Source: Pseudovibrio axinellae
Lineage (GTDB): Bacteria > Pseudomonadota > Alphaproteobacteria > Rhizobiales > Stappiaceae
Assembly (NCBI RefSeq): GCF_900110875.1
Contig: NZ_FOFM01000007.1
Location: forward strand, 186,001 to 250,000
Direction: 5' to 3'
Length of the DNA stretch: 64,000 nucleotides
Shown here: piece by piece, positions 52,743 through 63,929 of the stretch
How positions within the stretch are numbered: position 1 is the stretch's first letter
Layout: every line of letters begins with the position of its first letter
Notes under the pieces: model-generated
What the model saw: only the letters and a program-made list of their open reading frames with translations
Told to the model about the DNA's origin: nothing
Database searches by the model: none
Made by a program: the position numbers and the translations under genes

Positions 52743-52920
52743 AAAAATCCTTAAGGTGAAATGAAGAAATTATCGGTTCAGGAACCCGAATTACCGGTCA
52801 CGCCTATCCATGTTCCTACCTTCCTCTATTAAGTTGTTTAAGCTAGGCTATTCCAGGGCCAGAAGCAATTTCAGATTTTGCACATTAAAATAACTTATCC
52901 CCCCGGCCAACCACTGCCCT
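52743..52920. other. intergenic DNA before repeat copy A
   Basis: Promoter region of the SDR gene (minus strand). No other feature seen. Confidence 0.5.
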
Positions 52921-53286
52921 ATTCTAAATCCTGTGCTCACGTATTCGGGCAGCTGATGGACCGCCCATCAGTGCGGCGTGGGCTGGGCGGGGCTACCGGG
53001 TGAAGTAACGCATCATCCGGCGGGTTCGTTGAAACACCCCTTGAAAGTCTTTAGTGCAGGGACCAAGCGGAAGCTGGTCACCCGAAGGGCGTCTACACTG
53101 GCAGGCGTTTAGCTATCATCGACTATCGCATTTTCCTCTGGCAAGTGTGTGCATCGTTGACAGTGCCTGCTCCCAGTGCCTTTCGGAGGAGACCTTGTTT
53201 CATACAAAAACGCCCGGGCAAGGCGAGCAGCCAATGCCGAAGAAACTAATTTACTCACAATGCGCAGGCACTGCCTGCTCGCCTTG
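52921..53286 (+). repeat. structured mosaic repeat, copy A
   Basis: Related to the inverted copy at 63414-63843. Module 1 (52921-53103, 183 bp) and module 2 (53168-53242, 75 bp) match copy B without gaps at roughly 90% by hand count. The 64-bp core between them (53104-53167) does not align end to end. Conserved hairpins are CTGATGG/CCATCAG (52953-52959, 52965-52971), CCGGGTGA/TCATCCGG, a GACC-AGC stem with GGAA loop, and CAAGGCGAGCAG/CTGCTCGCCTTG (53219-53230, 53275-53286). Paired base changes between copies support a conserved fold. It lies 170 nt upstream of the NUDIX gene on the same strand. Confidence 0.85.
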
Positions 53287-53456
53287 CTCACACCCGAACT
53301 TTCGGGGCATTCAGTTCCACACTGCAGGTAAAGCCATGCGGTGCTAAAGCGCGTGTCATGCCGCTATTTATGTGCAAACTGCTATAATGCCTTGCTTGCA
53401 ACAAACTCCTGCAAATAACATCTGCCAAATTCAAACAACATTGATTTGATTGATTC

Positions 53457-63302: not shown

Positions 63303-63413
63303 GCTGCCTCTCTCATGAGGAAAGCCTAGCATGGGTCGCACGCAACGTATCTGCACAAACACCTTTTGCACCGCATAGAACCCATGCAGTGGTGAGACTT
63401 AAAACGAGGTGGA

Positions 63414-63843
63414 CAAGGCGAGCAGGCAATACCTGCGCTACTTGGATAAATATGAGTCTTCGGCATCAGCTACTCGCCTTGCCCGGGCGTTTTTGTATGA
63501 AACAAGGTCTCCACCAAAAGGCATTGGGAGCACGTGCCTAGTCATCGACGTGAGCTCCAACAAACACAAGTTTTGCTAAGAGCCGCACATTTCAGGCCAG
63601 TTTACTGTCAATGATAGTCACGCCTATCAGGATAGTTGTAGCTATCAAAACAGTTACACATGCCAGTGTAGACGCCCTTCGGGTGACCAGCTTCCGCTTG
63701 GCCCCTGCACTAAAGGCTTTCAAGGGGTGTTTCAACGAACCCGCCAGATGATGCGTTACTTCACCTGATAGCCCCGCCCAGCCCACGCCGAACTAAAGGA
63801 CGGTCCCTTAGCTGCCCGTTTACGTGAACATGAAATTTAGAAT
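63414..63843 (-). repeat. structured mosaic repeat, copy B
   Basis: Inverted relative of 52921-53286. Module 1 is 63661-63843 and module 2 is 63458-63532, the same lengths as in copy A. The core (63533-63660, 128 bp) is twice as long. In the first hairpin (63793-63799, 63805-63811), changes at two positions occur on both arms; the CAAGGCGAGTAG/CTGCTCGCCTTG stem keeps pairing through a G-T. It is oriented toward the GNAT gene. Confidence 0.85.
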
Positions 63844-63844
63844 A

Positions 63845-63929
63845 AGGGAGGTCACGGTAAGGGGAGTAACTTTATGATAGCCGAAGCGGAGCAGCCTTAG
63901 CTTCATAAAGCAGAGCACTTACCCTCCCT
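63845..63929. other. 85-nt nested inverted repeat next to copy B
   Basis: AGGGAG (63845-63850) pairs with CTCCCT (63924-63929), GGTAAG (63856-63861) with CTTACC (63918-63923), and CTTTATGA (63870-63877) with TCATAAAG (63903-63910). The three stems nest in register. No equivalent lies beside copy A. It may be a small RNA or part of a larger mobile element running off the window. Confidence 0.55.

Follow-up and report, generated by a model that had tools for sequence, protein, structure and literature searches.

A stretch of 64,000 nucleotides from the genome of Pseudovibrio axinellae, a marine bacterium (hereafter the window), carries two related intergenic repeats. This raises the question of whether they are genes for a structured RNA, mobile elements, leaders of the genes that follow them, or repeats that act as DNA. 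An earlier note, made from the letters of the window alone, had placed two copies at 52921-53286 (plus) and 63414-63843 (minus), sharing modules of 183 and 75 bp whose hairpins differed by paired changes. It had suggested an undescribed structured RNA or a mobile element, and had proposed a search of this and related genomes, a covariation test across further copies and an Rfam covariance search.

The two window copies and the repeated unit

Both repeats were present at the places given, but their extent had been drawn too short: profile alignment carried both copies further outwards (Table 1), and the added sequence comprised promoter-like boxes on the 5' side and a terminal hairpin on the 3' side. 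The hand count of 13 mismatches in the 166 inner positions of module 1 proved exact. Over the full 183 bp of this module there were 18 mismatches between the two window copies, and 69 of 75 positions were identical in the best ungapped 75-mer of module 2. Inspection by eye recovered the paired hairpin changes, with CTGATGG/CCATCAG in copy 1 and CTAAGGG/CCTTTAG in copy 2, as well as the G-C to A-T change in the second stem.

BLAST with a 366-bp query returned 24 pieces from the source genome (G000, 5.13 Mb), which were joined to 19 places, two of them in the window. With 24 such pieces, and with matches in 14 of 16 genomes of the genus, the similarity of the repeats is far beyond chance. We aligned 18 units of the source genome with their flanks, leaving out the divergent L024. 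These units measured 413-512 bp each by profile, and their similarity reached CTTATCCCC upstream and, downstream, a hairpin of the type CACTGCATGG..CCATGCGGTG. The plan of the unit is that of promoter-like boxes, a predicted RNA of ~370-470 nt and an end hairpin. In total the profile gave 157 full-length matches, 104 of them distinct; L193 and L208 were without the anchor. A partial copy with the 5' module only (L033:834-1009) was seen ~260 nt before a full copy.

Table 1. Features of the two window copies and of the predicted fold of copy 1 (window coordinates)
Feature	Position	Strand	Evidence
Copy 1, whole unit (boxes, RNA, terminal hairpin)	52888..53345	+	Profile alignment, 421 bits
Copy 2, whole unit	63368..63875	-	Profile alignment, 387 bits
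Promoter-like box TTATCC	52895..52900	+	Box pattern in 89/105 copies; copy 1 also matched by pattern
-10-like box TATTCT, 19 nt after TTATCC	52920..52925	+	Spacing 19 or 20 in 82/89 copies
5' hairpin domain: P1 52935-52942/52976-52983 around P1a 52953-52959/52965-52971	52935..52983	+	13/15 pairs change both sides, 43 copies
Central multibranched domain, long-range closing stem 52985-52989/53211-53215	52985..53215	+	4 double events at 3/5 pairs
P3 hairpin, GTAACG loop: 52990-52994/53023-53027 and 52996-53003/53013-53020	52990..53027	+	9/13 pairs change both sides
P8, the 3' arm: 53216-53238/53267-53289, loop GAAGA...GCGCA	53216..53289	+	8/18 pairs change both sides
Terminal hairpin, possible terminator	53320..53343	+	25 double events in 9 pairs

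Substitution patterns point to selection on base pairing

RNAalifold folded the 105 distinct Pseudovibrio transcripts into a structure of 101 pairs. When changes were reconstructed on the tree of these copies, 131 double changes that keep canonical pairs were found, at 56 of the 101 pairs. In 200 tree-aware shuffles, in which the same substitutions on the same tree were relocated among columns of similar rate, the mean number of such changes was 12.1 and the maximum 23. The proportion of paired cells was 91%, against a null mean of 67%. Sliding the partner strand left 5-18 double events, a control biased toward the fold, which came from this very alignment. For the hairpins of the earlier note, 22 of 28 pairs changed on both sides in an alignment of 43 of the 105 copies (A3), and none of 500 shuffles scored as high on any of five measures. 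The same was true of the 3' arm (8 of 18 pairs; 0 of 500 shuffles on five measures). In contrast, a corrected G-test over all pairs was weak: against a null of similar design, which the deep subfamilies widen, one pair alone reached E<0.05, and this pair lies inside the fold.

The paired columns held 1703 G-U cells and 165 A-C cells. This excess is partly built in, since the folding software allows G-U, and it points to an RNA of the sense strand. In the P8 loop, CCGAAGA and GCGCAGG were invariant in all 46 aligned copies, five of them from outside Pseudovibrio (alignment A1, with the other 41 taken from 100 distinct arms). Judged by these substitution patterns, the pairing is under selection and the family is almost certainly a structured RNA. 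An open reading frame in the P8 arm (ATGCCGAAGAAA...) was considered and rejected, as its start codon and reading length, compared by eye, differ between subfamilies; the longest sense frame per copy ranged from 26 to 130 codons.

The RNA family is apparently undescribed. A scan of the whole window with Rfam 15 (4227 families) at gathering scores returned two tRNAs only. In permissive scans to E=1, no match overlapped copy 1, nor a copy at any of nine further copy loci (L101, L133, L166, L038, L035, L048, L005, L020 and L239). Searches of the literature on RNAs and repeats of Pseudovibrio and Labrenzia, and of the general literature on large or multicopy RNAs, gave no counterpart.

Distribution across genomes

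BLAST matches were found in 15 of 41 genomes: 14 of 16 Pseudovibrio (the source genome included), one of nine others of the family and none of 16 others of the order. A covariance model built from 46 sequences of the 3' arm (R1) found matches in 34 of the family's 87 genomes. Of these, 14 are among the 16 Pseudovibrio genomes and 20 among the other 71, where one or two matches per genome were the rule. Two relatives, G004 and G015, held 24 copies each at E<=1e-8; looser counts of 28-36 (E up to 0.01) include antisense matches of the near-palindromic 3' arm. Two of the 16 Pseudovibrio genomes had no copy at all, so the family is not essential to the genus.

Roseibium and Labrenzia genomes had 1-4 matches each at E up to 0.01, some of them weak (G062, E 0.003; G075, E 4e-5). 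Diverged copies were recognised at four Roseibium/Labrenzia loci (L097, L101, L133 and L166) and at L038 in G022. The CCGAAGAAAC..GCGCAGGC arm was common to all five, GGTAACG to L101, L166, L133 and L038, and the boxes CTTATCCAC...TATACT to L101, L166 and L038, and a GC hairpin followed by TTTT ended L101, L133, L097 and L166.

Across the order, R1 matched 13 of 397 genomes and a second model, R2, matched 10 of 397. One genome (G344, 430 contigs), which belongs to a different family of the order, had four matches, three of which were inspected and convincing by eye. R1, which was not trained on G344, gave three matches there at 21-31 bits; the R2 scores for this genome are not independent, since three of the four matches were in the training set of R2. 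At L239 and L256 of G344 the 5' side was apparently cut and the 3' arm kept; retroposition with 5' truncation could leave such copies. G345 and G412 gave weak matches (32-33 bits) that were not taken as real, and G359 was dropped because its sequence was unlike the family on reading.

A model search of a class sample matched one of 385 genomes, the source genome alone. Nothing matched in collections of plasmids and phages, and three viral contigs that fitted the pattern fell short of the profile. In a pattern scan of GTDB, none of the matches listed (at least 114 stretches) from outside Pseudovibrio, Roseibium and Labrenzia reached the profile.

Promoter-like boxes, 3' ends and neighbouring genes

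TTATCC-like and TAnnCT/CATAnT boxes were present in 89 of 105 copies, 82 of them with a spacing of 19 or 20. Mean identity between copies was 94% and 74% in the boxes and 37% in the spacer, and this free change between two fixed boxes gives them the appearance of a promoter. TTATCC stands farther from the -10-like box than is usual for the -35 box of a sigma-70 promoter, and its 3' part may therefore be shared with the true -35. A simple promoter scan did not report the box pair. In three genomes the boxes were found in 17 of 18, 21 of 24 and 24 of 24 copies. At the other end of the unit, the 13 nt that follow the final hairpin contained 42% T, against 23% in the flanks; the T-run is weak in Pseudovibrio. 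The Roseibium/Labrenzia form of the TTATCC box is TTATCCAC (L101, L166 and L038; the window example is at 52895-52900), which is close to the DnaA box consensus.

Both window copies precede a gene on the same strand (NUDIX and GNAT), and cis-regulation of these genes was therefore considered. Neighbours were called for 114 distinct copies, orthologues kept, with an in-house hexamer-scorer that misses some genes, including the GNAT gene of copy 2. Of the 111 next downstream genes called, 67 lay on the strand opposite to the copy. Among the 96 copies with both neighbours called, 39 were in convergent, 28 and 18 in the two tandem and 11 in divergent arrangement. These counts are those expected of a gene in its own right rather than of a leader, and the neighbouring genes were of unlike function. 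On the strands of these neighbours we rejected cis-regulation, and the copies are in all likelihood not gene leaders.

Shared sites and exchange between copies

All 24 copies of G004 had at least one flank matching a G015 copy, and one of the 24 G015 copies was unmatched. Matched flanks were 78-98% identical, mostly above 87%. A few of these sites had recombined flanks; L272, for example, has an upstream flank that matches one G015 copy and a downstream flank that matches another. At the shared site L266/L290 the two copies were only 75% identical and belonged to different subfamilies, and L266 had a paralogue 95% identical to it. Of 21 of the 24 G004 copies compared with G015 by percent identity, 11 were nearer to their site counterpart, nine to a paralogue and one was a tie, which indicates that homogenisation is partial. 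In the source genome, nine of 12 copies at shared sites were nearer to a paralogue of their own genome (12 of the 13 shared sites with an own copy; L012 was left out). The simplest reading of this closeness between paralogues would be gene conversion between existing sites; independent insertions, more than one at a given site, are a less likely account.

At the NUDIX site the unit was present in G000, G002, G003, G004, G006 and G009, at a near-constant distance from the gene in these six genomes. It was absent from G005, and 98 bp of its 3' end were found in G008. A GC-rich near-palindromic stretch (TCATCCCGGGCGAAGCGCAGCGAAGACCCGGGACCCATAACCCC) that looks like another repeat lies 5' of the unit at this site in G006 and G009 (L173 and L174).

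In a tally of shared-site neighbours, 66 pairs had kept both neighbours, 76 the downstream one only and 16 the upstream one only, which would fit especially frequent gene turnover on the 5' side. The tally covered 105 copies from ten genomes with at least 1 kb of both flanks, a set that differs from the 105 folded transcripts, and its pairs are not independent. An initial tally, in which 78 pairs had kept both neighbours, 133 the downstream and 27 the upstream one alone, was skewed by the use of the 3' end to find copies and by copies at contig ends.

Alternative explanations

The suggestion of an undescribed structured RNA drew good support from the covariation over many copies, the large excess of G-U over A-C, the lack of an overlapping Rfam match, the promoter-like boxes and the T-rich end after the hairpin. 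The suggestion of a mobile element found little support. On that reading the copies would be a non-autonomous element and not a host gene, the fold being needed for mobility and the spread being due to a transposase or to a reverse transcriptase acting on the RNA. The many dispersed copies, the uneven copy number with two species lacking any, the presence or absence of the unit at the NUDIX site and the copies in the genome of another family, two of the three inspected there being apparently cut at the 5' side, all suit such an element, and the patchy occurrence and amplification indicate that the family did spread at some time. However, the sites are mostly common to two related species, given the flanks that all G004 copies share with G015, and most copies in three genomes keep both boxes and arm. 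Terminal inverted repeats and target-site duplications, as in a MITE, were not found beyond controls in 105 copies, in a test outside which IS families with neither feature lie. The TnpB domain PF07282, as expected for IS605, was present in none of nine Pseudovibrio genomes. RVT_1, as expected for a group II intron or retron, was present in three of the nine and absent from the source genome despite its 19 copies. We consider a mobile element unlikely, while giving it some weight.

Two further explanations appear highly improbable. A cis-acting leader or attenuator of the following gene would fit the two same-strand genes of the window and the near-constant distance at the NUDIX site, but not the majority of opposite-strand downstream genes, nor, for a riboswitch, the unlike functions of the neighbours. 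A repeat that acts at the level of DNA, as a recombination or chromosome-organising site whose single strands can fold without any RNA function, would account for the visible recombination between copies, as at L272, and for upstream contexts that change oftener than downstream ones. Against this, sense-strand G-U cells are tenfold more frequent than A-C cells (in part through the folding itself), and the units carry promoter-like boxes and a T-rich end. We give such a DNA repeat hardly more than token credence, and the leader no greater a share.

We therefore favour a family of stand-alone, trans-acting structured RNA genes with recombination between the copies, a reading to which we assign a probability of about 0.6.

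Proposed function and significance

In the stand-alone RNA gene reading, the copies are likely to be independent trans-acting genes, each of which would be transcribed into a structured non-coding RNA of ~370-470 nt. This RNA may act in trans, either within an RNA-protein particle or as an RNA-RNA regulator. Our guess is that it acts through the invariant P8 loop, with CCGAAGA/GCGCAGG as the putative contact site. Many copies could serve to increase the dose of the RNA or to vary its loops, in the way of multicopy sRNA families. A bolder proposal, which we regard as a long shot, is that the RNA is highly expressed from dozens of partly homogenised copies, amplified on the chromosome and kept as rRNA genes are, and that it assembles into large particles for a new cellular purpose, either by itself, with the invariant GCGC loop core as the contact, or together with protein.

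Many long structured RNAs of bacteria have turned out to work as catalysts, scaffolds or particles. The family also offers a natural system in which to follow how a multicopy, non-ribosomal RNA gene evolves, since Pseudovibrio genomes with 24, few or no copies can be compared.

Comparison with known RNA systems

HEARO and OMEGA RNAs and the RNAs of ORF-less elements are structured, some hundred nucleotides long and dispersed in copies, and the Pseudovibrio RNA resembles them in these respects. Unlike HEARO and OMEGA RNAs, it has no Rfam match, and the TnpB domain is lacking from the nine genomes searched. Ribosomal RNA genes likewise occur as dispersed copies that are apparently homogenised by recombination, as the Pseudovibrio copies appear to be; the family differs from them in having no Rfam match and in its absence from two of 16 genomes of the genus.

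Closest among the known kinds are the large ornate RNAs and the multicopy sibling sRNAs. The OLE, GOLLD and ROOL families are present in Rfam. OLE, GOLLD and ROOL are large ornate bacterial RNAs, of which GOLLD and ROOL reside in phages and prophages (PMC12286853). The Pseudovibrio RNA resembles them as a long intergenic RNA with a complex multibranched fold and a poorly understood function (PMC12286853). As in RNAs of this type, its large multibranched fold is backed by covariation, and the palindromic GCGC core of its invariant loop could kiss. It is unlike them in having no Rfam or phage match and many chromosomal copies. Homo-oligomeric RNA complexes are a mark of the ornate RNAs. With the sibling sRNAs, such as the CsrB copies and LhrC1-5, it shares several gene copies per genome of an RNA that acts in trans, an action that in Pseudovibrio is presumed. 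In contrast to these siblings, the Pseudovibrio family has far more copies (19-24), and its RNA is longer and more highly folded.
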